Source: Verrucomicrobiia bacterium | GTDB taxonomy: Bacteria > Verrucomicrobiota > Verrucomicrobiia > Limisphaerales > Fontisphaeraceae | Assembly: GCA_026414565.1 (NCBI GenBank) | Contig: JAOAIT010000061.1 | Coordinates: 1 to 64,000, forward strand | Length of the DNA stretch: 64,000 nucleotides | Direction of reading: 5' to 3' | Made by a program: the position numbers and the translations under genes | The notes under the pieces: model-generated | What the model was told of the DNA's origin: nothing | Databases searched by the model: none | Seen by the model: the letters and a program-made list of their open reading frames with translations, nothing else | Shown here: one piece after another, positions 3,001 through 58,766 of the stretch | How the letters are laid out: each line of letters opens with the position of its first letter | How positions within the stretch are numbered: the stretch's first letter is position 1

Positions 3001-6000
3001 GGCAATGACCGAGGGCGGCAGGGTGTCGGGGGTGGTGTAGGTCCACGAGGCGTTGGGCGCATTGCGATCAAAGCCGTTGGGGTTGGCGGCGAGGTCGGTG
3101 ATGCCGTGGCCGATGGCCCAGGCGACCTGAATCAAGGTGGAGTTGGGTTGCGGGAAGGTGAAGGTGTACTGGGCGCCACTGCCGCTGACGGCGGCTGCGG
3201 GCACGCCATTGATCAACAAATCCGCGGCGTCCACGCCGGTGACCGGCTCGGAGAAGCGCACGGTGATCTGGGTGAGGTTGGTTACCACGGAGTTGGGCGT
3301 TGGGGTGACGGAGATTAGCGTGGGGGGGATGAGGTCCACCAGCGTGTAGGTCCAGGAATTGCCGGCGCGGGTGTTTTCGAAGGCGTTGGCGGGGGTTTCC
3401 AAATCGGTGATGCCGTGATTGGCGGCCCAGGAGACACTCACCTGACCGTAGGCGGGCTGCGCCAGGGTGAAGGTGTAGGTGGCGCCGCTGCCGCTGACGG
3501 CGGTGGCGGGCAGGCCGTTGATGCGCAGGTCGGCGGCGTCCACGCCGGTGACGGGCTTGCTGAAGATGACGGTGATTTGGGTGAGGTTGGTCAGTTGGGC
3601 GCCGGCGGCCGGATTCTGGGCGGCCACGAAGGGGGCGTTGGGGTTGAGGAGCTGGTACTGCCAGGTGTTGCCCGGGGTGGCCGGCTCGAAGGCCTTGGGC
3701 GGATTGTCAAAGTCCACGATGCCATGATTGGCGGCCCAGGTGATGGCCACCGGCCCGTAAGCCGGCTGGGGGAAGCTGAAGGTGAAGGTGTCATTGCTGC
3801 TGCCGCCGGTGACGGCGACGGCGGGCACGCCGTTGAGGCGCAAATCCGCGGCGTCCACGCCGGTGACCGGCTCGGAGAACTTGACGGTCAGATTGGTCAG
3901 GGTGAAGACGGGGCCGGCGGGAGGCATCACCACCTGGACGGTGGGCGGGAGCAGGGAGACATCGGCGAGATAAGTGTACCAGATGCTTTCGAGGAGGAGG
4001 TCGGAGCTGGCGAGGCTGGTGTTGAACTGCATGATGGCCAGGAGGTTGGTGCCCTCGACGAGATAGGTGCGCGGGTCGGGAAGGGTGTAGGTGTAGGTGA
4101 CCAGGGGGCTGGGGGCGTTGTTGGCGAGGGTGGTGTAACTAGGCTCGCCGTTGGGGATGGCGTAGCGGGCCACTTCGACGCCGTTGATCCAGGCGGCGAA
4201 GCCGTCATCGCAGCGGAATTGCACGAACATATTGGTGATGGCCTGGACGTTGCGCACCACGAAGGCATGCCGCAGGAAGACGCAGGTGTAGTTGTTGCGC
4301 ATGTCATTCAGCGCCGTGTTGCCCGAGTACACCGGCGGGGTGTTGGCATCGTAGTAAAACGGCGCCATGCCGACCTCCCAGGCCGAGTCGTCAAAGTTCA
4401 ACAGGCGCCAGGCGTTGTAGGGATCGGAGGCTTCGGTGCGGCCGCGGAAGAAGCGGTACACGGCATTGCTGGCCACGAGGACGGTGCGGTTGTCCAGGGT
4501 GTAGCTCCAGGTGTTGCCGGCGGTGGCGGGGTTGAAGGCATTGGGTGGAGAGACCCGGTCGGTGATGCCATGATTGGCGGCCCAGGTGATGTTCACCGTG
4601 CCGGGGGCCGGCGGGGCGAAATAAAAGGTGTAGGTGGTGTCGGCGCCGGTCACGCCCACGGCCGGGGTGCCGTTGACCAGGAAATCGGCGGCGTCCACGC
4701 CCTGCACGGGTTTGCTGAACACGACGGTGACCTGATTCAGGTTGGTGAGGGTGCTGCCGGCGGGGGGATTTTGGGAGGCCACCACCGGGGGGGTGCGGTC
4801 CACCAGCTCGTAGGACCAGGTGTTGCCGGGGGTCTGCGGGTCAAAGGGCAGGGAGGCGGGCCAGCCGATGTCGGCAATGCCATGATTGGCGGCCCAAGTG
4901 ATGGCCACGAGGCCGAAGGCGGGCTGGGTGACGGTGAAGGTGTAGTTGGAGCCGCTGCCGGTGACGGCCGTGGCCGGCACGCCATTGACGAGCAAATCCG
5001 CGGCATGGACGCCGGTCACCCGCTCGCTGAAGATGACCTGGATGCTGGTGAGACTGGTGACGGTGGCGCCGCGGGCCGGGGTGACGCTGGCGACCACCGG
5101 GGGGTTGGTGTTGCGGGGCGGCTCGTCAAGGATGAGGGTGACGACGGCGGAGGTGGCTTTGCGGCCCTGGCCGTCAGTGGCCACGGCGGTCAGGGCGTTG
5201 GTGCCGAAGCTGGCGTTGCTCCAGGTCAGGCTGTAAGGCTCGGTGGTGTCGGTGCCCAGGGTCAGGCCGTTGGCCCGAAATTCCACCTGGGCCAGGCCGC
5301 CCACGCCGGCGGCGAGGGCGGTCAGCAAGACGTTGGTGGGCATTTCCAGGCCGGAGATGCGGGTGCCGTTGGTGGGGCTGGTCAGTTGCACGAGGGGGGT
5401 GGCCTGGGCATCATGAATGGAAACTTGCAGGGTGCTGCTGCCGCGGGCGCCCTCGGCATCCACGGCAGCGGCCTCCAGGGTGTGAAAGCCCACTGCGGGA
5501 GCATTCCAAGTCATTTGATAGGGGCTGTTGGTTGCCTGGCCCAGGAGCAGGCCATCCACCCGAAACTCCACGTAGGCCACGGTGCCATCGGGGTCGGTGG
5601 CCTGGACTTGGAGGGTGACGGCGGCGGGGCCGGCCAGGGCGGCCTGGTTGGTGGGATTTTGCCAGGTAACTAGGGGGGATTGATTGCGGACGATGACGGG
5701 GTAGCCGCGCAGTTCCAAATCAAAACTCAGGTCGGAGCTGGTGGCGCTGTTCTGGTGCACTTCCACGGCGAGGACGTTGGTGCCGGCCACGAGCAAATTG
5801 GCGATTTCCGCCTCATAATAAACGGTGCCGTCGTCGCTGGCCGAGGTCGAGGCATAGGTGTTGTAGGTGATGGTGCCGGCGGGCATGTTTTGGCGGTTGA
5901 CCTCCACGCCGTTGAGGTAGATGACGGCGCCGTCGTCGCGCAGCACGCGGAGGAGCAGGGCCGAGTAGGCAGCGGGGTTGGCCACCATAAAGCGATGGCG

Positions 6001-7215
6001 GAAATAAATGGTGGGGAAACGGGCGTTGTCCGGCCCGATGTTGATGACGGTGGCCTCCGGGCGGCCGTCGGCGGAGTCGCCGGCGCCCAGTTCCGCCGGG
6101 CCCTCGGGCCAGGCGGAGTCGTTGAAGGCCGGGTCCCGCCAGGCCGTGCCCTGGTCCACGCCGGTATCGAGGTATTTCCAGACAGAGCCGGTGGGCACGA
6201 TGGTCTGCGCGATGGCCACATAGACGGGCGGGGAGGTGTAGGTGAGGCCGGTGTTTGCCCAGCCGATGGCCCGGAGGAGGTGCAAGCCCTGGCTTACGTT
6301 GGTCCAGGTGAAGCTGAAGGGGGCGGTGGCATCAAAGCCGAGCAGGTTTTCATCGCCGTAAAAGGCCACATTGGTGATGGCGCCGGAGGGGAGGACGGTC
6401 ACGGCGGAGATGTTAATGACATTGGTGGCCAGGTTGGCGCCGTCGGGGGGGGCGGTAATGGCCACGCCGGGGTTCATGATGGTCACGGTGGCCACGGCTG
6501 AAGTGGAGCGGGTGTTGGCGCCATCCACCAAGACGGCATAGACGCCGTAGGTGCCCAGCGGGAGGTTGCTTGTCACCAGGGAGTAAGGCGCATTGCTCAC
6601 GGTGCCAATGAGGGTGGTGGCCCGGTAAAATTCCATGCGCACGATGGGGGGGGTGGGCGGGGTGCCGGTGGCGGTGAAGGGGACGGGGGCTCCTGCGGCG
6701 TAGAGGCTGCCGTTGGTGGGGGAGCTGAGGATGACCGGCAACTGCATGGCCACATTCAGCACGATATTGCCGCGGGCGGTGGTATTGCCGCCCCCGGGCC
6801 GCCGGCCGCCGACCTGGATTTGGTATTGGGTGTTGGCGGTGGCCTCGAAGGTTACGCGGCTTTGCACCTGATTGGTGGCGATATTGTCATTGGCGGCCAC
6901 CACAGTGAGAAAGAAAACAGATGTGCCGGTGTAGATGCCGAGGACGGTGTCGAAGTCGCTGCCCACGGTGTCAATGGTGACGCGGCCACTCATGGGGGCC
7001 GTCCAGCTCCACCAGACAGTGCCATCCAGGCGTCCCACTTGGTTGGGGTTGTTGGGCTCTCCAAACTCCATGTCGGCCCCGACATTGCTGCCGGTGGCGG
7101 TGGCGGTGACGCCGGTGAGGGGGATGCGGTTGCCGAAACTATTGTTGGCCGGTTGCCCGATGGCCGATGCCAGCGAAAGGCCGAAGGCGGCCAAGGCCCA
7201 AAGAATGTTTCTCAT
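1..7215 (-). CDS. Giant secreted CotH-kinase / lamin-tail / Ig-repeat protein (3' end outside window)
   Basis: The frame is open from an ATG at 7215 to the left edge, about 2405 codons with no stop, so the C-terminus is missing. Residues 1-18 (MRNILWALAAFGLSLASA) form a signal peptide. Next come a PPC-like beta domain (about 20-150), two Ig-like domains (158-335), a jelly-roll-like module with LRDDGAVIYLNG (335-507), two more Ig domains (508-695), and SbsA-type Ig repeats of about 100 residues carrying FSEPVTGVDAADL and WAANHGI. Six such repeats lie between about 700 and 1495, interrupted by a second jelly-roll-like module (about 912-1085). A lamin-tail domain starts near 1503 (FNEIMHNPRGG...EWIELRN). 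A CotH kinase-like domain follows (GVRIRGAGSRSR near 1925; HDFDTIFG near 2153). The last residues look like the start of a beta-helix. CotH proteins can be secreted protein kinases; the substrate is unknown. The long open frames on the opposite strand here are antisense artefacts. Confidence 0.88.
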   Translation of the reverse strand, partial: MRNILWALAAFGLSLASAIGQPANNSFGNRIPLTGVTATATGSNVGADMEFGEPNNPNQVGRLDGTVWWSWTAPMSGRVTIDTVGSDFDTVLGIYTGTSVFFLTVVAANDNIATNQVQSRVTFEATANTQYQIQVGGRRPGGGNTTARGNIVLNVAMQLPVILSSPTNGSLYAAGAPVPFTATGTPPTPPIVRMEFYRATTLIGTVSNAPYSLVTSNLPLGTYGVYAVLVDGANTRSTSAVATVTIMNPGVAITAPPDGANLATNVINISAVTVLPSGAITNVAFYGDENLLGFDATAPFSFTWTNVSQGLHLLRAIGWANTGLTYTSPPVYVAIAQTIVPTGSVWKYLDTGVDQGTAWRDPAFNDSAWPEGPAELGAGDSADGRPEATVINIGPDNARFPTIYFRHRFMVANPAAYSALLLRVLRDDGAVIYLNGVEVNRQNMPAGTITYNTYASTSASDDGTVYYEAEIANLLVAGTNVLAVEVHQNSATSSDLSFDLELRGYPVIVRNQSPLVTWQNPTNQAALAGPAAVTLQVQATDPDGTVAYVEFRVDGLLLGQATNSPYQMTWNAPAVGFHTLEAAAVDAEGARGSSTLQVSIHDAQATPLVQLTSPTNGTRISGLEMPTNVLLTALAAGVGGLAQVEFRANGLTLGTDTTEPYSLTWSNASFGTNALTAVATDGQGRKATSAVVTLILDEPPRNTNPPVVASVTPARGATVTSLTSIQVIFSERVTGVHAADLLVNGVPATAVTGSGSNYTFTVTQPAFGLVAITWAANHGIADIGWPASLPFDPQTPGNTWSYELVDRTPPVVASQNPPAGSTLTNLNQVTVVFSKPVQGVDAADFLVNGTPAVGVTGADTTYTFYFAPPAPGTVNITWAANHGITDRVSPPNAFNPATAGNTWSYTLDNRTVLVASNAVYRFFRGRTEASDPYNAWRLLNFDDSAWEVGMAPFYYDANTPPVYSGNTALNDMRNNYTCVFLRHAFVVRNVQAITNMFVQFRCDDGFAAWINGVEVARYAIPNGEPSYTTLANNAPSPLVTYTYTLPDPRTYLVEGTNLLAIMQFNTSLASSDLLLESIWYTYLADVSLLPPTVQVVMPPAGPVFTLTNLTVKFSEPVTGVDAADLRLNGVPAVAVTGGSSNDTFTFSFPQPAYGPVAITWAANHGIVDFDNPPKAFEPATPGNTWQYQLLNPNAPFVAAQNPAAGAQLTNLTQITVIFSKPVTGVDAADLRINGLPATAVSGSGATYTFTLAQPAYGQVSVSWAANHGITDLETPANAFENTRAGNSWTYTLVDLIPPTLISVTPTPNSVVTNLTQITVRFSEPVTGVDAADLLINGVPAAAVSGSGAQYTFTFPQPNSTLIQVAWAIGHGITDLAANPNGFDRNAPNASWTYTTPDTLPPSVIAITPLPGTTVGRLDQITILFSEPVTGVDATDLLINSRPARSVTGSGAGPYVFSYLPPSNGVVEVRWSPAANIQDLAPSPNAFAGGEWTYRLQAGLSYANKVIFNEIMHNPRGGAAALEWIELRNLTAEPVNLTGWRLSRGVSFTFPAVTLPANGYLVVAANVAAFRSNYPTVTNVVGGWTGQLANGGETLALVSAEGEEIHRVRYASEGDWATRERGRGAQPVLSITRSGTTATVTIFSHGYTANDHVLISGADQPEYNGRFVVNSVGASTFTITVSGSPATPATGNIICRQVLDNGASGWAWFSAADGFGSSLELVNPALPHTSGQNWLSSTVPGGTPGRANSVATNNVAPLILSASHYPLVPRSTDPVTVRAQIVDELTNGVQAVTLYYRNHSTTSPGNFTALAMRDDGLSGDGVAGDRWYGARLPTFTNGAIIEFYLQATDTSGLSRTWPAPAWNTNGVYGQLANALFQVDNEVLTNTMLGVRIVMTATERATFPATDTASDAESHITLILQDGNETDVRYNGGVRIRGAGSRSRNPKNNRINIPNDNPWKNLSAINLNCQFIHAQYVGNVLAQKSGLPAADCMLAQYRVNGLNLAPVTAPANGTSSGAGYGTYLLLYPVNGELAQEIWPEDGDGNVYRASIFPHNANLNYLGTDPSSYVASGYYKNSNRAENDWSDLINLTYAFSQIANEQDYRNAIVTNLNVQLWMRYFAYGSMVNYGETSLFNGRGDDYALYRGMKDRRFVLIGHDFDTIFGQGDTTTYYPTLTNSSIWIMLNPPSPEPNVPLLRRFLTNAPFAPIFFAELKRLCDTTFHPDHLFPFFDQLLSGWGPDAAKIREMKTHAFNRRAVVLSQIPLTLTVSSSLPTQNGYLYTTSPNVTLFGQANVIDTRQVWVNGNAALWSAWEGRWTNSLTLRPGLNRVLVQSLNSNNVVFASATADIWYDTTSQPVSGTISADTTWLAASGPYNVTGTLTIGSGATLTIQPGTTVYFGSGANLVVA

Positions 7216-7229
7216 GTAAAAACTTAATA

Positions 7230-7246
7230 CGTCTTTGATTTAGACG
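7230..7246. promoter_or_regulatory. Small inverted repeat in the CotH/guaB divergent intergenic region
   Basis: CGTCT and AGACG arms flank a 7-nt AT-rich spacer, 15 bp upstream of the CotH-protein ATG and about 130 bp upstream of guaB. It could be an operator or a 5'-UTR hairpin. No T-run follows on either strand, so it does not look like a terminator. Confidence 0.25.
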
Positions 7247-7378
7247 CCAATTCTGACTGAACGGTTACAAAAGCGCAACAAAGCAAGCGGGCCTTGCTTC
7301 TGCTCCCGCCGCCGGTGCGGGGGGGTGGGGGTGATTTTCCGGGCTTGCGTTCGGGCGGCAAGCCAGACACAATACCGC

Positions 7379-8947
7379 ATGGCGACCAAATCGTTTCGCA
7401 ACGCGACCGATAACCAGTTCTACCTGCCGGCGGACGCCTTTTTTCGGGCTCACGCCGCGCTGGCGTTGACGTACGACGACGTCACGCTGGCAACGAATTA
7501 CTCGGAGATTCTGCCCCGGGACACCGTGCTGCAAAGTGTGCTGGCGCCGGGCCTCACCCTGAACATACCGATCATCTCGGCCGACATGGACACGGTGACG
7601 GAGTCGGCGATGGCCATTGGGATGGCACTGAACGGGGGTCTGGGGCTGATCCATTACAACATGAGCGACCGCGAGCAGCTTTCGGAGGTCTCGCGGGTCA
7701 AGCATCATGTGCACGGGCTGATTCAGGATCCGGTGACGGTCAGCCCGGAGCAGCACATTGGGGAGGTGCTGGCGATGGTGGAGGAGCGGCGGTTTCAGTT
7801 TCGGACGTTTCCGGTGATTGACGCCCAGCGGAAGTTGCTGGGGCTGCTGCCGGGGCACGTGGTGAAGCCGCGCTATGCCAGGCACACGGTGGCGGAGATC
7901 CTCACGCCGCGCGCGCAGGTGCAGACGATTCAGAAGCGGGAGCTGGGGCGGGATCCGATTGCGCGGGCGGACAAATTTTTCTCGGAGCATCCGGGCATCA
8001 ACAAGCTGCTGGTGGTGGATGATCAGGACCGGCTGTACGGGCTGTTCACCATCAGCGATGTGGAGCGTATCATCCAGGAGAAAAAGGCCCTGTTCAAACC
8101 GGCGCGGGATGACAAATGGCGGTTGATTTGCGGTGCGGCGGTGTCGGCCACGCGCAATGCGTTTGGGGAGATTGACCGGGAGCGGCTGATCTCGCACGTG
8201 GGGGGGCTGGTGGAGCGGGGGCTGGATGTGGTGGCGGTGTCCACGGCGCATGGTTTTTCGCGGGGGGTGGGGGAGGCGGTGCGGATGATCCGGCAGGCCT
8301 TTCCCAAGCTGCCCATCATTGCCGGGAATGTGACGACAGCGGCGGGGGTGGAGTTTCTGGCCGATTGCGGGGCCAACATCGTGAAGGTGGGGCAGGGGCC
8401 GGGCAGCATTTGCACGACGCGGCTGGTGGCGGGGGTGGGGGTGCCGCAGTTGACGGCGCTGTACGTGTGCAGCCAGGCCGCCAAAAAGAAGCGCGTGACT
8501 TTGCTGGCCGATGGGGGGATCACCAAATCGGGCGACATTGTCAAGGCGCTGACGCTTTCGCAGGCGGTGGTGTGCGGGGGCATCCTGGCGGGTTGTGATG
8601 AGGCGCCGGGGGAGGTGATTGAGATCAGCGGGAAACTGTACAAGCAGTATCGCGGCATGGGCAGCCTGGCGGCCATGAAGGCCGGCTCGGCCGCCCGCTA
8701 CGGCCACAGTACGCCGGATCCCACGCGCAAGGTGGCGGCCGAGGGCATCGAGGCGCTCAAGGAGGCCGCCGGGCCGTTGAATCGCGTGCTGACGCAGTTG
8801 ATTGGGGGCATCCAGTCCGGGATGGGCTATCTGGGGGCGGCGAATCTGGCCGAGCTGCGGCAGAAGGCGCGGTACATTCGGGTGAGTCCGGCGGGGATGC
8901 GCGAGGCGGGGCCGCATGATGTGGTGGAGGTGAAGACTTCCACCTGA
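7379..8947 (+). CDS. guaB: Inosine-5'-monophosphate dehydrogenase
   Basis: Oxidises IMP to XMP with NAD+, the committed step of guanine nucleotide synthesis, in the cytosol. The 522-residue product has the TIM-barrel start ([14 protein letters not shown]), two CBS domains at about 115-230 ([25 protein letters not shown]), the catalytic loop [16 protein letters not shown] with the nucleophilic Cys, the ADGGI phosphate-binding segment and the [10 protein letters not shown] flap. The ATG at 7379 (MATKSF) was chosen over an in-frame GTG at 7325, because the 18 extra residues do not resemble the family. Length is normal. It is followed 75 bp later by a transporter gene on the same strand. Confidence 0.96.
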
Positions 8948-9022
8948 GCGTATGGTTGGGCCATCTTCACGGGCGGGAGGGGATACCGCCGCGGCGGGGC
9001 CGGGGTGCCGGCTGGATGACGC

Positions 9023-10507
9023 ATGAGCGCCCGGTTTTCGCCGGTCTTCCGCCAGATGGCGGGGCGTGTGATGGTGCTGCGGGGCGCGGCGCGGGAGCTG
9101 TGGCTTGTGTTCCTCGCCAAGCTGCTGGCCATCACGGCCTACGGGGTGATGAACGCGTGCCTGATTTTGTGGCTTTCCAGCGATTTGGGCTACAGCGACG
9201 TGCAGGCGGGGGACATTGTGATGTTGTGGTCCACGCTGATGACGATGGCGACGGTCATGGTGGGATCGCTGGTGGATGCGATTGGGTTGCGGCGGGCGTT
9301 TTTGCTGGGGATCAGTGTCTGCATTTTTGCGCGGGGGACCATGACGCTGAGCACGGTGCCGTGGCTGGCGGTGGGGGTGGGGCTGATGGCGCTGGCGGTG
9401 GGCGAGGCATTGATGACGCCGGTGATGGTGGCGGCGGTGCGCCGGTATGCCACCACGGCGCAGCGCTCTCTGTCGTTTTCCATTTTCTATGTGATGATGA
9501 ATTTGGGCTTCCTGCTGGGGGCCTATATTTTTGATCACGTGCGGGCGTGGCTGGGGGAGACGGGGCGCTACACGCTGCCGCTGCTGGGGTGGGAGTTCAG
9601 CACGTATCGCGTGTTGTTTCTCATCAGCTTTTTACTGACCTTGCCCAACCTGGTTTTGCTGTATTGGGGGGTGCGGCCGGGGGTGGAGGCCACGGACGAG
9701 GGCCTCAAAATCACGCCGGAGCAGCCCAAATACGCGGATCGCGGAGTGTTCAAGGGGCTGGCGCTGACGGTGCGGGATGCGGTGGATGACACTGTGCGCA
9801 TTTTTGCGGGGCTGTGGCGGCAGCCGGCGTTTTTCAAGTTTCTGGCGTTCTTAACGCTGGTGGTGGCGGTGCGGCTCATCATGTATCACATGAACTACAC
9901 CTACCCCAAGTTTGGGATTCGGGAGCTGGGGGACGGGGCGCCGATCGGGCGGTTGTGGGCGATCAACCAGATGCTCATTATTTTCCTGGTGCCGCTGATG
10001 GGCACGCTGACGTTGCGGTGGTCGGCATATCGGGTGGTGACGCTGGGCAGCGCGGTGGCGGTGGCGGCGGTGTTTGTGATGGCGCTGCCGCCGGAGTGGT
10101 TTGCGCCGCTGGCGCAAAGCTGGCTGGGGGCGTGGTTGTATCACGGTTATCTGGGCCTGCAGGGGGCGTTCATTCATCCGTACTACGTGATGATTTTCCT
10201 GTTTGTGGTGGGGTTGTCGCTGGGCGAATCGCTGTACTCGCCGCGGTTGTATGAGTACCCGGCGGCCATTGCGCCCAAGGGTCAGGAGGCTTCCTACATG
10301 TCGCTGTCGTACCTGCCTTTTTTTGTGGCCAAGGTGTTTGTGGGGATGTCCTCCGGCCGGTTGCTGGAGCAGTATTGTCCGGCAACGGGCGAGCGGATGT
10401 CGTGGATGTTGTGGACGTATATTGCGGTGATGGCGGCCGTCACGCCGTTGGGGCTGATTTTCTTCCAGCGGTTTATCCGGGTGAAAGAAGCGGGGCGGAC
10501 GGATTAA
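9023..10507 (+). CDS. MFS transporter (POT/PTR-like)
   Basis: An integral membrane protein of 494 residues with about 12-14 hydrophobic segments. The N-terminal half carries the MFS loop after TM2-TM3 (GSLVDAIGLRRAFLLG) and FSIFYVMMNLGFLLGAY, which resembles the FYxxINxG region of proton-dependent oligopeptide transporters. The substrate cannot be read from the sequence; peptide or nucleoside-like solutes are possible given the neighbours. It lies between guaB and a dUTPase gene on the same strand. Confidence 0.8.
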   Translation: MSARFSPVFRQMAGRVMVLRGAARELWLVFLAKLLAITAYGVMNACLILWLSSDLGYSDVQAGDIVMLWSTLMTMATVMVGSLVDAIGLRRAFLLGISVCIFARGTMTLSTVPWLAVGVGLMALAVGEALMTPVMVAAVRRYATTAQRSLSFSIFYVMMNLGFLLGAYIFDHVRAWLGETGRYTLPLLGWEFSTYRVLFLISFLLTLPNLVLLYWGVRPGVEATDEGLKITPEQPKYADRGVFKGLALTVRDAVDDTVRIFAGLWRQPAFFKFLAFLTLVVAVRLIMYHMNYTYPKFGIRELGDGAPIGRLWAINQMLIIFLVPLMGTLTLRWSAYRVVTLGSAVAVAAVFVMALPPEWFAPLAQSWLGAWLYHGYLGLQGAFIHPYYVMIFLFVVGLSLGESLYSPRLYEYPAAIAPKGQEASYMSLSYLPFFVAKVFVGMSSGRLLEQYCPATGERMSWMLWTYIAVMAAVTPLGLIFFQRFIRVKEAGRTD

Positions 10508-10615
10508 AAACTCACCGTTGGCGGCGGATGGACAAGCCCAACCGCTTGCGCACGTGTGAATAACTTCTCGTGATTTTCCTTGTCGCCGGAGGCGGGCTGG
10601 GGCATCACTGCGGGC

Positions 10616-11053
10616 ATGGATGCACCCGATCAACTGCGCGAGCTGTTCCGAATGCAAAAGGCCCTGAATGAACGCATCGGGGTCCGCACGGAAGGCATGA
10701 CGGAGGCCGAGCGGATTCAGTGGGTTCTGAACTACTGCCGGGCGATGTCCCAGGAGATAGCGGAGCTGACCGACAGCGTGCCGTGGAAGTGGTGGGCGCG
10801 ATACCAGAAGTTTGACGAGCAGAATGCGCGGGTGGAGGTGGTGGATTTGTTTCATTTTCTCATCAGCCTGGCGCAGGTATTGGGGATGAGCGCCGATGAC
10901 GTGTTTCAGGCGTACGTTAAGAAGAACGAGATCAATTTCAAGCGGCAGGAGAGCGGGTACACGGAGAAGGACGAGAATGACTGCCGGCACATCGGGGTGG
11001 AGAAAGCCCCCGCGGCGGCCGCTGAAACTTGCAGCGCCGCTGCCGGAGGTTGA
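10616..11053 (+). CDS. Dimeric-type dUTP diphosphatase (all-alpha NTP pyrophosphatase)
   Basis: 145 residues, all-helical. The family's metal-binding acidic motifs are visible: SQEIAEL (ExxE) followed by TDSVPWKWW, then VEVVDLFHFLISLAQ (ExxD), and KNEINFKRQESGY. This is the dUTPase_2/MazG-like fold, which hydrolyses dUTP to dUMP and keeps uracil out of DNA. The ATG at 10616 (MDAPDQLRELFRMQKALNE) gives the expected N-terminal helix; an alternative start 36 bp upstream adds unrelated residues. The low-complexity Ala-rich C-terminus after residue 130 looks lineage specific. Confidence 0.85.
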   Translation: MDAPDQLRELFRMQKALNERIGVRTEGMTEAERIQWVLNYCRAMSQEIAELTDSVPWKWWARYQKFDEQNARVEVVDLFHFLISLAQVLGMSADDVFQAYVKKNEINFKRQESGYTEKDENDCRHIGVEKAPAAAAETCSAAAGG

Positions 11054-11174
11054 GCGTTTTACCTTGCACGCCAGCGGCCGCTGGGGATAATTCCTGATTA
11101 AGTCCCCGCCGGTGTTGTGTGCCGGTATGGGCGGTTAATGAAAAGCACTTAAAAGCTCCCAACCATCCAACGCC

Positions 11175-11936
11175 ATGAAACACCTGCTGTTTGCTTCGCT
11201 GGCCGCCGCGGTGGCGGTTTCCCTGAACGCGCCCGCGCCGGTATGTGCCGCCGACAACGAGCCGCCGCCCGGGTTTATTGCCCTGTTCAATGGCAAAGAT
11301 TTCACGGGCTGGCGGGTGCCGGAGGGGGACAATGGCCATTGGAAGGTGGTCAATGGGGTGATTGATTACGACGCGGAGAGCGAGGCCAAGGGCGACAAGA
11401 GCCTGTGGTGCGAGCGGGAGCTGGGCGATTTTATTTTGCGGGTGGACTGGCGCATCAAGGCCACGCCCTACACCAATCCGCATGTGCCCTACATTCTGCC
11501 CGATGGGACGCATGCGCGCGACATCACCGGCAAGGAATTGCAACTGGCGCTGCCGGACTCCGACAGCGGGATCTTCCTGCGGGGCTCGGGGACGTACCAG
11601 GTGAACATTTGGTGCTGGCCCATCGGGTCGGGGGAGATGTACGGCGTGCGCATGAATCCCAAGACGCCGCCGGAATTGCGCGCGGCTGTGACGCCGCGCC
11701 ATCAGGCTGACAAGCCGGTGGGTGAGTGGAACCGGTTTGAGATCACGGTGCGCGGGCGCACGGTGACGGTGGTGCTCAACGGGGTGACGGTGATCCCCGG
11801 GGCCACCATTCCGGAGCTGCCCCTGCGGGGGCGCATTGCGCTGCAACATCACGGCGGCAAGGACGCGCAGGGGCGGTGGAACAGCCCGCCGAGCCTGCTG
11901 CAGTTCAAAAACATCTTCGTGCGCGAGTTGAATTAA
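11175..11936 (+). CDS. Secreted DUF1080 (3-keto-disaccharide hydrolase-like) protein
   Basis: 253 residues with a clear signal peptide (MKHLLFASLAAAVAVSLNA). The DUF1080 jelly roll starts at LFNGKDFTGWRVPEG and contains the typical SDSGIFLRGSGTYQVNIW strand and the late segment GRIALQHHGG. Members are exported glycan-binding or glycoside-processing proteins that are strongly expanded in Planctomycetes and Verrucomicrobiota. The individual substrate is unknown. It lies 121 bp after the dUTPase gene and 35 bp before a nucleoside transporter. Confidence 0.88.
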   Translation: MKHLLFASLAAAVAVSLNAPAPVCAADNEPPPGFIALFNGKDFTGWRVPEGDNGHWKVVNGVIDYDAESEAKGDKSLWCERELGDFILRVDWRIKATPYTNPHVPYILPDGTHARDITGKELQLALPDSDSGIFLRGSGTYQVNIWCWPIGSGEMYGVRMNPKTPPELRAAVTPRHQADKPVGEWNRFEITVRGRTVTVVLNGVTVIPGATIPELPLRGRIALQHHGGKDAQGRWNSPPSLLQFKNIFVRELN

Positions 11937-11971
11937 AGGGGGGCGGGCGGGGGCGAATACCCTGGGCGACG

Positions 11972-13228
11972 ATGCATGGTCTGCTGACGGGGCTGTTGGG
12001 GCTGGGGGTGTTTTTGGGCGTGGCGTGGGCGCTTTCCGCCAACCGCCGGGAGGTGCCGTGGCGCACGGTGTTGTGGGGGCTGGGCCTGCAAACGGCGCTG
12101 GCGTTGTTCATCCTTAAAACCCGGGCGGGCCAGTTGGTTTTTGATTATGCGGGGCGGGGCATCCGGGCGCTGATCGCTTTTGCCAATGAGGGGTGCGCCT
12201 TTGTTTTCGGCCCGCTGGCGCGGCCGGCCACGCTGGAGCAGGCGTTTGGGCCGGGGCAGACGTTTATTTTCGCCATCACGGTGGCGGGCACGATCATTCT
12301 GGTGTCGGCGCTGTCTTCGCTGCTGTATCACTGGGGGGTGCTGCAACGGGTGGTGCAGGCCATGGCGTGGCTGATGCGCCGCGTCCTGCGCACCAGCGGC
12401 AGCGAAACCCTGGCGGCGGCCGCCAATATTTTCATGGGCCAGACGGAGGCGCCGCTGGTGGTGAAGCCGTACCTGGCGCGCATGACGCGCAGCGAGCTGT
12501 TGTGTTTGATGACCGGCGGCATGGCCACGCTGGCGGGCGGGGTGGCATCGGTTTATGTCAAGCTGGCCAGCGAGGCGGGGCATCCGGATTTTGCGGGGCA
12601 TCTGCTCACGGCCTCGGTGATGAATGCGCCGGCGGCGTTGTATCTATCCAAGATGTTGCATCCCGAGACGGAAACCAGCGAGACGGCCGGGCAGGCGGCG
12701 GGTTTTGTGCCGCGGACCACCACCAACAGCCTGGACGCGCTGTGCCAGGGGGCGGCGGACGGCATGAAACTTTCGCTCAATGTGATGGCGATGTTGATAG
12801 CATTTGTGGCGGTGGTGGCGCTGGCCAACGCGCTGCTGGTGGGGGCGCAATCGGTGGCGGGCATCACCTCGCCGGCGAATTTGCAGACGGTGCTGGGCTG
12901 GCTGAACGCGCCGCTGGCGTGGCTGATGGGGGTGCCGGCGCAGGATTGTCTGGCGATTGGCGCGGTGCTGGGGGAGCGGGTGGTGTTGAATGAGTTTATC
13001 GGTTATGTGTCCCTGAACGCCGCGCCGGTGGAGGCGCGCAGTTACACGATCGCGATCTATGCGCTGTGCGGTTTCGCCAATTTTGCCAGCATCGCCATTC
13101 AGGTGGGCGGGATTGGGGCGTTGATTCCGGAGCGCCGGGGGGAGCTGGCGCGGCTGGGGTTGCGCGCCATGCTGGGGGGGCTGCTGGCCTGTTATGTATC
13201 GGCCACGCTGGCCGGATTGATGATATGA
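11972..13228 (+). CDS. Concentrative nucleoside transporter (CNT/NupC family)
   Basis: 418 residues with about 10 hydrophobic helices. The CNT signatures are present: RTSGSETLAAAANIF followed by MGQTEAPLVVKPYL (conserved GQTEAPL), MTGGMATLAGGV, and the C-terminal segment GERVVLNEFIGY. The family imports nucleosides with Na+ or H+. The ATG at 11972 is preferred over an in-frame start at 11876 that would overlap the DUF1080 gene. The stop overlaps the next start by 4 bp (ATGA), indicating translational coupling to the HAD phosphatase. Confidence 0.93.
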   Translation: MHGLLTGLLGLGVFLGVAWALSANRREVPWRTVLWGLGLQTALALFILKTRAGQLVFDYAGRGIRALIAFANEGCAFVFGPLARPATLEQAFGPGQTFIFAITVAGTIILVSALSSLLYHWGVLQRVVQAMAWLMRRVLRTSGSETLAAAANIFMGQTEAPLVVKPYLARMTRSELLCLMTGGMATLAGGVASVYVKLASEAGHPDFAGHLLTASVMNAPAALYLSKMLHPETETSETAGQAAGFVPRTTTNSLDALCQGAADGMKLSLNVMAMLIAFVAVVALANALLVGAQSVAGITSPANLQTVLGWLNAPLAWLMGVPAQDCLAIGAVLGERVVLNEFIGYVSLNAAPVEARSYTIAIYALCGFANFASIAIQVGGIGALIPERRGELARLGLRAMLGGLLACYVSATLAGLMI

Positions 13229-52903: not shown

Positions 52904-54406
52904 TTAATCCATGATGACCGCCTGCACGGCACCCGCCACCGGCCGTGCCCGGCTGGCCAGGGCGCCCGCCCACGCCAGGTCGCCGTGGGAGGCGGGATTG
53001 AGGGGGTTGGCACTTTCCAGGAAGCACCACCGGCCCTGCCGGCAGCACTTGCGCAGCGCGAAAAAATCCGCGCCCACGTCTGGCTCGCTGCGGGGAAAGC
53101 GTTTGCGCACGGCGGTGAGTTCCTGCATGAGTTGAAATCCGAGGGCGGCTTTTTCGCGGGCAAAATTGACCGGCACAAAGCGGCCGGGATACCGCTGCGC
53201 GGCCTCCCAGCAGATTTGGCGGCCGAGGCCGGTTTCGTCGCCGGCGGCTTGGAGCTGCGGAAAGTTGTCCATGAAAAAGGCGAGGGCGGCCTGCAGGAAA
53301 TGCCAGTCCTGGGTGCGGCAGGTGAGGAGGGCGCAGAGGCGGGCCTCGTTCTGGAGGAGGCGGTCGAGGTAGAAGGCGGAGAGATCGCCGGCGCCGGAGG
53401 CGGCCACATCGAAGCCCAGCGCGAAACCCTGGTTGGGGAGCTGGCCGGCCGGACCGAGGGTTTGGGCCAGCAGGGAGTGAATGCGATGGCCTCTAGCGGG
53501 CGCGTGGGCGGGGGCAAAGGCGCCGAAGAGATGCTGGATTTCCGCCTCCTCCAGATGGAGGCGTGGGATGCGGTCTTCGGTGGCGCATTGTTCAATGACG
53601 CTCCAAGGCACCAGGGCGCCGGTGGCGCCGGAGGGCTGGCAGAGGTATTCCTGCTCGAAGATTTCGGGGAGGCGGGCACGGGCGCGGCAGTCCTCGACGA
53701 AGGATTCGCGGGTGAAGGTGGCGCCGGTGGCGGCATTGATTTTCTCCACCAGCCCCAGGGCGATGGCGTCGGGCAGGGTCACGCGGTAATAGCTCCAGCC
53801 GCCTTTGCCGGCGGCGGCTTCCTGGGCCAGGCGATGGAAGAGGGTCTGGCTGCCGCAGTGGGAGGACCAGAGGGCGAGATCGAAGCCCCAGGTGACCCGG
53901 CCGGAGACGGTGGCATACAGCTCCTCGGGCCGCGGGTGGAAGGCGAATTCGTCCACGCCCACATCGCCGCCGAAGGCGCGGAGGGCGTTGGGGTTGGAGC
54001 TGAAAGCCAGGATGCGGGAGCGGTTGGCGAACTTGATGACGCCGGCCTTGAACTCCTCCACCTGCCAGGGATGCCGCGCGCCCGGCCGGGGGGCGCGCAA
54101 CCGCTCCACGCCGTGGGCGAGCATCACCCCCGCGCCGCCAAACCATTCGCAGAACTGCCGGCACAGGCGGATGTATTCGAGGGCCGTGGCCTCGTCCTTG
54201 GTGGTGAACAGATAATCACGCCGCGGATGGAGCAGGCGTTTGCGGACGTTTTTGAAGGCGTCGGCAAACGTCCAGCCGATGCGCACAGATTTCTCCGCCA
54301 GGCACAAGCGCGATTCATCCAGAATCCAGGCGATTTGATAGGGCAGGAAGATCTGTGCCATCGCGTCGGCGGCGGCGCGGTGGCGGGCAGGAAGTATGGC
54401 CGCCAT
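52904..54406 (-). CDS. Phage terminase large subunit (Mu gp28-like), isolated island
   Basis: 500 residues. ATPase part: the Walker-A-like LAEKSVRIGWTFADAF, LFTTKDEATALEYI, and the Walker-B-like DVGVDEFAFHPRPEELYA. Nuclease part: GFDVAASGAGDLSAFYLDRL from about residue 340, with the first acidic residue of the RNase-H-like fold. The frame and length are complete. In a phage this motor cuts and pumps DNA into the procapsid through the portal. There is no small terminase, portal or capsid gene next to it; it lies 66 bp after hisF and before a regulator gene. The first ATG (54406) was taken; 54370 (MAQIFLPYQ) is an alternative. Confidence 0.9.
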   Translation of the reverse strand: MAAILPARHRAAADAMAQIFLPYQIAWILDESRLCLAEKSVRIGWTFADAFKNVRKRLLHPRRDYLFTTKDEATALEYIRLCRQFCEWFGGAGVMLAHGVERLRAPRPGARHPWQVEEFKAGVIKFANRSRILAFSSNPNALRAFGGDVGVDEFAFHPRPEELYATVSGRVTWGFDLALWSSHCGSQTLFHRLAQEAAAGKGGWSYYRVTLPDAIALGLVEKINAATGATFTRESFVEDCRARARLPEIFEQEYLCQPSGATGALVPWSVIEQCATEDRIPRLHLEEAEIQHLFGAFAPAHAPARGHRIHSLLAQTLGPAGQLPNQGFALGFDVAASGAGDLSAFYLDRLLQNEARLCALLTCRTQDWHFLQAALAFFMDNFPQLQAAGDETGLGRQICWEAAQRYPGRFVPVNFAREKAALGFQLMQELTAVRKRFPRSEPDVGADFFALRKCCRQGRWCFLESANPLNPASHGDLAWAGALASRARPVAGAVQAVIMD

Positions 54407-55528: not shown

Positions 55529-56341
55529 ATGATGATTTATTGGCGCAGCAGATCGTTTTGTTCCCGATGGGTCCACATGGCCCTGGCGGCCGCCGCCGGT
55601 GGGGCGGTGGTGTCTTTTTTGGTTTCGTGCGCCTCGGTGGAGCGGGCGGTGGTGCGGCCGCCGGACATTCCGGGCGCCAGCTTTGTGGGGAATGCCGCCT
55701 GCGCCGATTGCCATTCCAACCTGGTGCAGCAGTTTCCGCTGAGTCCTCATGCGCGGGTGCACTTTGCCGGGGCGCCGCTGGCCGGTCAGACGAGTTGCGA
55801 GGCGTGCCACGGGCCGGGCAGCCTGCATATTGCGCAGGGGGGCGGGCGCCAGAACATTGTGAATCCGGGCAAGGATCCGGCGGCGTGTCTGGCGTGTCAC
55901 AAGGACATCGAGATGGAGTTTCGGCTGCCGTCGCATCATCCGGTGCTGGAGGGGCGGATGAATTGCGTGCAATGCCATGATCCGCACGGGCGCGACATCA
56001 TGAAGGCCGCCGGGGGCCTGGCGATGGCACGGGTGAATCAACAGTGTGCGGGGTGCCATCAGGAGCAGAGCAAGCCGCATGTGTTTGAGCACGAGGCGCT
56101 GCGCGAGGGCTGCACGGTGTGCCATCGTCCGCACGGGACGGTGGCGGCGAAGCTGTTGCTGGAGCGCGATGCCAATCTCTGTTTGAAATGCCATGCCCAA
56201 ACCCCCGGGCCGGGGGCGGCGGGGGACATCTACATTGGCAAGGTGCCCCACGGGGCCTATTTGCGGCAGGGCACCTGCTGGTCGGCCGGCTGCCATAGCG
56301 CGGTGCATGGCTCAAACCTAAACCCCCGCCTGAGGTACTGA
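55529..56341 (+). CDS. Periplasmic multiheme c-type cytochrome (DmsE/MtrA-like)
   Basis: 270 residues. After a hydrophobic N-terminus with a possible lipobox (VSFLVSC), seven CxxCH heme motifs follow (CADCH, CEACH, CLACH, CVQCH, CAGCH, CTVCH, CLKCH) plus a final CWSAGCH, a CX4CH site. The end SAVHGSNLNPRLRY is typical of the DmsE-like family. Such proteins wire electrons through the periplasm to an outer-membrane porin. The next gene starts 1 bp after the stop and encodes a beta-barrel, so the two form a unit. The start is the first of two adjacent ATG codons. Confidence 0.9.
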   Translation: MMIYWRSRSFCSRWVHMALAAAAGGAVVSFLVSCASVERAVVRPPDIPGASFVGNAACADCHSNLVQQFPLSPHARVHFAGAPLAGQTSCEACHGPGSLHIAQGGGRQNIVNPGKDPAACLACHKDIEMEFRLPSHHPVLEGRMNCVQCHDPHGRDIMKAAGGLAMARVNQQCAGCHQEQSKPHVFEHEALREGCTVCHRPHGTVAAKLLLERDANLCLKCHAQTPGPGAAGDIYIGKVPHGAYLRQGTCWSAGCHSAVHGSNLNPRLRY

Positions 56342-56342
56342 C

Positions 56343-58766
56343 ATGGCGCGTCATCTCCATCTGCTGGGGCTGTGGGCCGGGGCGCTGCTGGCGGCGGCGG
56401 CGGGGCCGGAGCTGGCGCGGCTGCCGGCGCCGGTGGCGTTCAAGGTGGATTACCTGCGGGACATCAAACCGATTTTTGATCGCTCCTGTTTGCGCTGTCA
56501 CGGCAATGAGCGGCCGAAGAGTGATTTCAGTCTCATGACGCGGGAGGCATTGTTGCGCGGGGGGGCGGAGGGCCGGGCGGTGATTCCCGGCAACAGCGCG
56601 CAAAGCCCGCTGGTGCATTACATTGCCGGCCTGGTGCCGGACATGGAGATGCCGCCGCCGGGCAAGGCGCCGCCGGTGAGCACGCAGGAGTTGGCGCTGA
56701 TTCGGGCGTGGATTGACCAGGGGGCCGCGTGGGATGAAACGGCCGATGCGCTGGCGTATGCTCCCCGTTTGACGCTAACCACCACAGCGGGCGGGCTATG
56801 GGTGGGGGGGCGGCAAAATCTATTTCGTGAACACACAGGGCAGCGGGAGGGGGTGTGGGGCGGGGTGCAGGAGTTGAGTTATGCGCAGCGCCTGACGAAT
56901 GGGACGTTGATTGAGGTGGAGACCCGCGCGGTGGCGGGCACGCCCGAGTATGCGGCGCGGTTGTCGCTGAGCCGTCCGGGGTTGGGCTATGTGCGGGCGG
57001 GCATGGAGCAATATCGGCGCTATGAGGACGATGCGGGCGGGTATTATGGGGGGCTGGCGAGCGAGGCGTGGAGTTTGGGGCGGGAATTGAAACTGGACCT
57101 TGGCCGGGCGTGGATTGAGGCCGGATTGAGGCGGTCCCGCGGGCCGCAGGTGACGGTGGGGTATGAGTATCGTTACCGGCAGGGCGACACGGCGCTGACC
57201 CAGTGGGGGGATGTGACGGATGGGGCGGGGGAGGTGCGGCGGATATATCCGGCGTGGAAACGGCAGGATGAAGGGACGCACGTCGTGCGATTGGAGGCGG
57301 CGCACGCGTGGCGCGGGTGGCAGATGAGCGAGGCGCTGCGGGTGGAGTTTTCCCGGCTGCAGCATGAGCGGGAGCTGGCCACGCTGGTGGCGGGGAAGGA
57401 CGGGCCGGACAAGGTGGCGCGGATCGTGGAGCAACTGCGGAGTTTTCAGGCGGTCAATACGTTGCAGGTGGAGCGGCAGATTCGTCCCTGGTTGTTTGGG
57501 GCGGTGGGTTATCTGTACCAGACGTATGATGCGCGGGCCAACCATGAGCAGGGGGTGACGTATCTGCCGCCGAGCCTGGTGGCGCCGGCGCCGGGGCCGT
57601 GGCCGGATGACAAGTTCTGGTCGTTCAACCATCTGACGTTGCGGCAGGAGTCGCACGTGGCCAACGCGAATGTGCAGCTCAGGCCGTGGCGGCATCTGAC
57701 GGTGGCGGCGGGGGTGCAGCCGGAATGGCAGAGCCAGGAGGGGTTGGGGCACGTAATTTTGGACGAGGGGGTGCCGGTGTTTGCGCAAACGGCGTGGATC
57801 AACGCCACGCATGACCGGGTGTCGCTCAGCGAGGATGTGGGGCTGCGATTGACGGCGATCCCGCATACGGTGTGGTTTGCGGATGCGCGTTTCCGGCAGG
57901 AGAGTTTGGAGCAGCAAGAGTTCATCGGGCCGGGCAATTTTTACGAGTTTGGCCGCCGCACCGATGCCTCGGCGGATCAGCGGGATTATCGGGCGGGCCT
58001 GAGTGTGTCGCCGTGGAGCCGGTTTTCGTTCACGGGTCATTTTCGGCGGCGCGAGCGTTATAATCACTATCATCACCCGGAGGACATCACCTTCATGAGC
58101 GCGGGAGGATTTCCCAACGACGGCTACTCGGCCTTCATCACCCGCCGGCGGGATATGACGGATGAATGGGAGGCCAAACTGGCATGGCGCGCGCATAAAA
58201 CGGTGAAGGTCACCCTGGGTTACCGGCATCGCGTGACCGACTGGTTCAGCGCCACAGATGAATTGCCGTGGGATGTTTCCCCCGGTGGCGGGCTGCAGAC
58301 GGCGGTGAGCCGCGGTCATACCTTCAGCGCCACGCTGACGCTGACGCCGCATCCGCGGTTTTATGCGTCGTCCACGCTGGCGTGGACGGACAGCAAGACG
58401 GCGGCTTATGCGGCGGACTTTGCGGCGATTGCGCCGTGGCGGGGGACTACGTGGACGGTGATGAACCGGATGACGTACCTGCTCAGCCGGACGACGGATG
58501 TGAATGCGGGCTATGCGTTGACGCAGGCGGATTACCGCCAGCCCCGGGGCGCCGAGGGACTGCCGCTGGGGAGCGAATTCACCAGCCACGTGGCGCAGGC
58601 GGGGTTGACGCGGCGATTTGGTGCGCGGGTGGTGGCCGGGTTGAACTATGTGTTTTATCACTTTGACGAGGCCTGGGGCGGGGCGGGGCGGTCGTATGTG
58701 GCGCATGGGGTGCTGACGAGCCTGCGGGTGGATTTTACGCCCCGGCCCCCGCCCGCCGCGCCTTGA
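56343..58766 (+). CDS. Fusion of PSCyt1 heme domain with outer-membrane beta-barrel (MtrB-like)
   Basis: 807 residues. A signal peptide (LLGLWAGALLAAAAG) is followed by a planctomycete-type cytochrome domain at about 35-130: IKPIFDRSCLRCHGNERPKS (heme), VIPGNSAQSPLVHYIAGL and MEMPPPGKAPPVS. The rest (about 140-807) is a long run of alternating amphipathic strands rich in Tyr, Arg and Trp with short turns, ending near LTSLRVDFTP, as expected for an outer-membrane porin of about 24-28 strands. Together with the upstream cytochrome this resembles MtrAB/PioAB conduits. I know of no standard family where the heme domain is fused to the barrel. Confidence 0.8.
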   Translation: MARHLHLLGLWAGALLAAAAGPELARLPAPVAFKVDYLRDIKPIFDRSCLRCHGNERPKSDFSLMTREALLRGGAEGRAVIPGNSAQSPLVHYIAGLVPDMEMPPPGKAPPVSTQELALIRAWIDQGAAWDETADALAYAPRLTLTTTAGGLWVGGRQNLFREHTGQREGVWGGVQELSYAQRLTNGTLIEVETRAVAGTPEYAARLSLSRPGLGYVRAGMEQYRRYEDDAGGYYGGLASEAWSLGRELKLDLGRAWIEAGLRRSRGPQVTVGYEYRYRQGDTALTQWGDVTDGAGEVRRIYPAWKRQDEGTHVVRLEAAHAWRGWQMSEALRVEFSRLQHERELATLVAGKDGPDKVARIVEQLRSFQAVNTLQVERQIRPWLFGAVGYLYQTYDARANHEQGVTYLPPSLVAPAPGPWPDDKFWSFNHLTLRQESHVANANVQLRPWRHLTVAAGVQPEWQSQEGLGHVILDEGVPVFAQTAWINATHDRVSLSEDVGLRLTAIPHTVWFADARFRQESLEQQEFIGPGNFYEFGRRTDASADQRDYRAGLSVSPWSRFSFTGHFRRRERYNHYHHPEDITFMSAGGFPNDGYSAFITRRRDMTDEWEAKLAWRAHKTVKVTLGYRHRVTDWFSATDELPWDVSPGGGLQTAVSRGHTFSATLTLTPHPRFYASSTLAWTDSKTAAYAADFAAIAPWRGTTWTVMNRMTYLLSRTTDVNAGYALTQADYRQPRGAEGLPLGSEFTSHVAQAGLTRRFGARVVAGLNYVFYHFDEAWGGAGRSYVAHGVLTSLRVDFTPRPPPAAP

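Follow-up and report, generated by a model that had tools for sequence, protein, structure and literature searches.

What does a heme domain do on the barrel of an outer-membrane electron conduit, and which way would electrons pass through it? Both questions are raised by a gene pair in a 64,000-nucleotide stretch of DNA (hereafter the window; GenBank assembly GCA_026414565.1, contig JAOAIT010000061.1, positions 1 to 64,000) from a Verrucomicrobiia bacterium of the order Limisphaerales. A gene for an octaheme c-type cytochrome (55529..56341, + strand) was followed, after a gap of 1 bp, by a gene for an 807-residue protein in which a PSCyt1 heme domain precedes an MtrB-type barrel (56343..58766, +, stop codon included). 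The coordinates, gene order and gap given for this pair in an initial annotation, made from the sequence alone, all held. With a probability of about 0.6, the pair is read here as an MtrAB-type porin-cytochrome conduit, in which a periplasmic relay is tethered to the barrel and serves soluble carriers.

The octaheme cytochrome and the fused barrel

The 270-residue cytochrome (start codon as predicted) was related to MtrA and DmsE and was predicted to be a lipoprotein. Its eight candidate heme sites, already counted in the initial annotation, comprised seven CXXCH motifs (CADCH, 55700..55714; CEACH, 55796..55810; CLACH, 55886..55900; CVQCH, 55964..55978; CAGCH, 56045..56059; CTVCH, 56111..56125; CLKCH, 56180..56194) and a last CX4CH motif (CWSAGCH, 56276..56296, with C250, C255 and H256), all on the + strand. 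The same count of seven plus one was returned by a motif script in 67 of 68 aligned octaheme relatives. In this 68-row alignment (A4), all eight motifs and the lipobox cysteine (C34 of LVSC, 55628..55630, +) were invariant columns, and a simple lipobox pattern matched 54 rows. The cytochrome matched the MtrA chain of the Mtr complex (6r2q_A, whose entry carries the molecule name cystathionine beta-synthase) with an E-value of 1.8e-27 as a single sequence, improving to 7.7e-35 when a profile built from 31 relatives (A2) was used. Matches to the decaheme NCBIfam models NF041028 (E = 6.9e-52) and TIGR03508 (E = 5.4e-42) were strong but fell short of the curated cut-offs, in keeping with a protein that lacks two of the ten hemes. 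In our reading of the alignment, hemes 1 and 2 aligned with the first two hemes of MtrA and the last six with its last six, so that the plug has eight hemes where MtrA has ten, and MtrA hemes 3 and 4 are missing. AlphaFold2 run on the cytochrome as a single sequence, without an alignment, gave an unusable model (predicted local distance difference test, pLDDT, 34.4).

The PSCyt1 domain annotated ahead of the barrel was recovered by Pfam, whose profile hidden Markov model (HMM) matched residues 49-107 with an E-value of 2.4e-15, within a helical cytochrome c domain modelled at residues 37-138 (56451..56756, +). All 60 aligned relatives, a set chosen as complete fusions, also matched PSCyt1. In the 60 rows, C49, C52 and H53 of the heme motif CLRCH (residues 49-53, 56487..56501, +) were invariant, as were M103, P104 and P105 of an MPP motif. 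Met103 (56649..56651, +) is a candidate second axial ligand, which would give the heme His/Met ligation.

An AlphaFold2 model of the fusion protein, based on the 60-protein alignment, had a mean pLDDT of 87.9 and a predicted template modelling score of 0.83, and placed 26 strands at residues 142-797 (56766..58733, +) behind the helical domain. As the last helix ends at residue 138 and the first strand begins at 142, the linker is very short. The MtrB barrel likewise has 26 strands. Foldseek returned MtrB (6r2q_B) as the best match of the barrel in the PDB (E = 3.4e-15, target TM-score 0.70; next match 7.8e-11), and VIA also ranked it top (Z = 21.5, root-mean-square deviation 3.7, 571 residues aligned over 137-798; next match Z = 16.8). 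At the family level, 9 of the 60 relatives matched MtrB_PioB (PF11854) at E ≤ 0.1, with a best value of 6.9e-7. The initial annotation had staked its proposal on the C-terminal 670 residues forming a transmembrane barrel, and the prediction of 26 strands with MtrB as the best match agrees with it. Together with the homology of the plug to MtrA, this predicted fold supports the MtrAB-type conduit proposed there.

Conservation and history of the pair

A survey of other Verrucomicrobiota, suggested in the initial annotation, found a full-length fused match in at least 110 of the 293 sampled genomes of the order and a shortened one in at least nine more. Mostly three candidates were scored per genome in this sample and two at most in a phylum sample of 387 genomes, so that all these counts are lower bounds. 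At least 13 genomes of the phylum sample matched at 1e-45. Outside the order, the matches comprised ten unfused barrels and a single protein with PSCyt1 only, and none of the candidates scored there (up to two per genome) was a fusion. A scan of about 85,000 species (one genome each), seeded with two PSCyt1 peptides, gave 184 relatives, and the best 80 of these included 71 loci with the barrel. The octaheme gene lay upstream of the barrel in 70 of these loci, the exception beginning at a contig edge, and in 29 of 29 loci of the order sample (L012-L040), many of them on contigs shared with the 71. As the pair and its heme residues were kept across the order, the fusion is conserved beyond chance, and a one-off fusion or an assembly artefact was rejected. 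Concerning record titles, 69 of the 71 loci were labelled Verrucomicrobiota, the others being Klebsiella (L056) and plain "bacterium" (L067). The titles of L056 (Klebsiella pneumoniae) and L098 (Akkermansia muciniphila) look wrong, the contigs apparently belonging to genomes (G160 and G203) assigned to the window's order.

Two trees of a quick type were built. The barrel tree (57 rows: the window, L153, 33 of the 59 complete fused proteins and 22 unfused barrels) placed 35 fused barrels on one side of a branch with a support of 88. Beside the fused group stood the unfused barrel of a genome outside the class (G418, locus L133), and the other 21 unfused barrels were far off (support 100). In the octaheme tree (56 rows; L075, with no octaheme gene on its contig, was left out), the octahemes of fused pairs and that of L133 were separated from the other unfused ones at a support of 100. 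Because the fused barrels group together and the octaheme tree has the same deep split, the sequences would fit one fusion event followed by joint inheritance of the pair. The L133 locus (4629-12358) also encodes, besides its octaheme and unfused barrel, a c554-type tetraheme cytochrome and a membrane protein with one CXXCH (by eye), with an apparent copper nitrite reductase bearing a cytochrome tail and two Crp-like regulators close by (by eye).

Gene context, proposed mechanism and direction of electron flow

The window's genome contained a second pair on another contig (C24; L007, 3638-12689), with an octaheme cytochrome 54% identical to the first and a barrel 27% identical and without the heme domain. 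Next to this unfused pair were genes for a NapC-like protein and for two multiheme proteins, one with nine CXXCH motifs and the other with 11 and a weak match to cytochrome b561. The neighbours of the fused pair were non-redox genes, namely a histidine-biosynthesis gene upstream on the opposite strand (hisF by eye) and a sugar transporter downstream. No MtrC-like gene was found beside it and no further CXXCH-bearing frame of more than 100 residues in the window, consistent with the lack of an adjacent extracellular cytochrome noted initially.

The context was then compared across 101 non-repeat loci (79 fused, 22 unfused; L100 and L110 were assigned as fused by hand), of which 59 fused and 21 unfused loci remained once those with less than 6 kb of total flank were dropped. 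The contrast and its Fisher p values, which take no account of relatedness, are descriptive, fused and unfused loci being two deep branches. Another gene with at least four CXXCH motifs occurred within 6 kb in 19 of the 21 unfused loci (and in 12 of 12 unfused loci within the order) but in none of the 59 fused ones, and a NapC-like gene flanked 14 unfused and no fused loci. Conversely, a cupredoxin gene flanked 22 fused and no unfused loci. The cupredoxin-domain HMM used for this count had seven seeds, all from fused loci, which therefore count by construction. It replaced a neighbour cluster first labelled cupredoxin, which was rejected as other Ig-domain proteins were mixed in. The genome's best match to a cupredoxin profile adjoined the fused pair in 6 of 20 genomes (G187, G158, G022, G021, G025 and G076); in others it lay on another contig, and two genomes had no match. 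That 12-row profile (A5) was built from fused loci, and the G187 cupredoxin is itself one of its rows. In the window's genome, the four listed of 18 matches to the profile covered its Ig part only; a match of this kind in the window (5416-5697, - strand) lies inside a 2413-residue open frame. Two COX1-family genes were present in this genome.

On these grounds, the octaheme lipoprotein would act as a plug inside the 26-strand barrel. Outer-membrane barrels with an even number of strands have both ends facing the periplasm. Being N-terminal to such a barrel, the class-I-type heme domain would be periplasmic and would lie at the periplasmic mouth, beside the periplasmic end of the plug, whose N-terminal end and lipid anchor are probably at the same mouth. 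The initial annotation had offered two roles for the additional heme, and this topology disfavours the first, a bridge between the plug and the surface, while the N-terminal position and the gene context support the second, accepting electrons from a periplasmic donor. In the simplest reading, the PSCyt1 domain would be a tethered relay, taking the role that has been suggested in other systems for free periplasmic cytochromes such as MtoD. It would exchange electrons with soluble carriers of the periplasm, namely small c-type cytochromes and, in some members of the order, cupredoxins resembling plastocyanin, and not with a dedicated quinol dehydrogenase encoded nearby. A net inward flow, from an extracellular donor through plug, PSCyt1 and carriers to a terminal oxidase, is favoured because NapC-like and surface multiheme genes are lacking at fused pairs, cupredoxins occur in part of the order, and the genome has two COX1-family genes. 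Tentatively, and with doubt prevailing, the fused pairs may form a distinct class of trans-outer-membrane conduit that arose once in the ancestor of the order, in which the barrel carries a periplasmic redox port, plug and port make a nine-heme module coupled to soluble high-potential carriers, and electrons are taken up from an external source (iron(II), reduced humics or other cells).

Several points weigh against this interpretation. The barrel of the window's own gene had no Pfam match to PF11854, and a search of its genome with this family returned nothing over the cut-off. The AlphaFold2 barrel model contains no heme, and both the seat of the plug in the barrel lumen and the direction of flow are inferred. 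The potential of the heme does not follow from a class-I fold, since MtoD is described as having 155 mV, which is lower than the 200-250 mV usual for such cytochromes. Cupredoxin genes were missing beside 37 of the 59 fused pairs, and PF00127 found no cupredoxin in the window's genome. One barrel of the fused type (G059; L174, 1270-4190) had no PSCyt1 match and retained its octaheme gene, an apparent loss, which suggests that barrels of this type can lose the domain. It was the one case without the domain among six odd loci examined for its absence, another being frame-broken with the domain and four running off contigs. Moreover, both trees were unrooted, and the fused group by itself had a weak support of 40 in the octaheme tree.

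The same conduit could also run outward on balance, with carriers fed by the respiratory chain passing electrons through PSCyt1 and the plug to manganese(IV), iron(III), humics or oxygen. Conduits of this sort may operate in either direction according to a published paper, and outward transfer to humics was proposed for verrucomicrobial porin-octaheme clusters by He et al. (2017; PMC5615132). Against it, the NapC-like and b-type-linked multiheme neighbours belong to the unfused paralogue of the same genome and to none of the 59 fused pairs, and the entry heme, if of high potential, would suit only high-potential acceptors. For the reduction of Fe(III) or of an electrode, suggested as a test in the initial annotation, the context of the unfused paralogue is a better fit than that of the fused pairs. 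Outward flow is rather unlikely.

The PSCyt1 domain might instead serve in sensing, assembly or anchoring and bind its heme incidentally. Its loss in G059 would allow this, as would the occurrence of PSCyt domains in proteins of unknown function (PMC5615132, available text). However, the cysteines, the histidine and the methionine of the MPP motif are invariant throughout the 60 aligned fused proteins, and two of the 59 complete fused proteins (L079, 1099-3894; L087, 972-4067) have PSCyt1 twice in tandem ahead of the barrel, a duplication suggestive of a chain, which makes a non-relay function very unlikely. A free 151-residue PSCyt1 protein, 48-49% identical to the fused domain, was encoded in the window's genome, and in L105 (1763-2218) a gene for a free PSCyt1 protein lies directly upstream of the octaheme gene. 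PSCyt1 was also considered as a substitute for the two hemes that the plug lacks, but this idea was abandoned, the plug of the genome's unfused pair having the same eight hemes.

Least credible of all is a metal-handling porin, whose barrel would pass ions or chelates while the hemes alter their redox state for uptake or detoxification, e.g. of copper: it could draw on the cupredoxins beside 22 and the SCO1/CusF-type proteins beside 7 of the 59 fused pairs (the latter also beside 1 of 21 unfused pairs, with no significant difference) and on the TonB-dependent receptors among the next fold matches, but MtrB with its 26 strands was clearly the best match, no TonB-dependent-type plug domain was matched in the fusion protein by Pfam at E ≤ 0.1, and an invariant octaheme partner would exceed the apparent need of ion reduction.

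Comparison with known systems and neighbouring genes

As in MtrAB, MtoAB and PioAB, an MtrA-related multiheme gene adjoins the gene of a 26-strand MtrB-type barrel, and, as stated for MtoAB and PioAB in a published paper, no surface cytochrome is adjacent. The pair differs from MtrAB, in addition to heme number, by the lipobox, the last CX4CH motif, the heme domain on the barrel and the lack of an adjacent NapC-like gene. It differs from MtrCAB in that no adjacent surface multiheme gene was found, either in the window or within 6 kb at the 59 fused loci. The Geobacter OmbB-OmaB-OmcB system, compared by heme number only, also has eight hemes. MtoD, described as a free class-I monoheme cytochrome and proposed as a carrier running between MtoAB and the inner membrane, is a precedent for such a relay, as is the fused cytochrome-porin Cyc2. 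It resembles the fused domain as a class-I monoheme linking a conduit to the inside, but MtoD is free and bis-His coordinated, whereas the fused domain is tethered and has an invariant methionine.

The Cyc2 barrel is smaller, has 16 strands and acts alone. Like the present protein, Cyc2 is described as an outer-membrane porin with a monoheme domain fused to its N-terminus, and it is set apart from the present protein by the 26 strands and the conserved multiheme partner gene found here. The initial statement that conduit barrels carry no heme is thus true for MtrB but too broad, a cytochrome-barrel fusion being known in Cyc2. As a consequence, the novelty lies in a heme domain on a 26-strand MtrB-type barrel with a multiheme partner.

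Also from Verrucomicrobia are the clusters of He et al. (2017; PMC5615132), whose available text describes verrucomicrobial porins with at least 20 predicted transmembrane motifs beside eight-heme cytochromes and proposes extracellular electron transfer. They resemble the present pair in setting a porin beside an eight-heme cytochrome; in that text, no heme domain of the porin is mentioned and several clusters include an extracellular multiheme cytochrome, and they may correspond to the unfused type. The planctomycete-type proteins described there share PSCyt1, but join it to PSD or carbohydrate-binding domains and not to a barrel. Within the open literature searched, no description of a PSCyt1-barrel fusion was found, and "PSCyt1" and "porin" occurred together only in PMC5615132; words beginning "verrucomicrob" were absent from the main texts of PMC8805035 and PMC4245776. 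Porin-octaheme clusters of Verrucomicrobiota are already published, and the heme-barrel fusion is a real, conserved variant whose wiring is inferred.

If the relay reading is true, the barrel of a conduit can itself take on the periplasmic hand-off, usually the task of a partner that diffuses or is bound to the membrane, and this in the many genomes of one verrucomicrobial order that carry the fusion. If electron uptake is also true, a large and mostly uncultured group would have a so far unrecognised uptake route. The presence of fused and unfused conduits with different neighbours in a single genome allows their wiring to respiration to be compared in a natural setting.

Among the other genes of the window, a terminase large subunit-like gene (52904-54406, -; phrog_2, E = 4.1e-17; Pfam Terminase_6N) adjoins the histidine-biosynthesis gene. 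Near several fused pairs (e.g. L050, L077, L094 and L109), an extracytoplasmic function (ECF) sigma factor, a membrane-type partner and a prepilin were recognised by eye, the one such partner tested having no Pfam match. Genes labelled by eye as LeuS, RdgB and IMPase also recur around these pairs.

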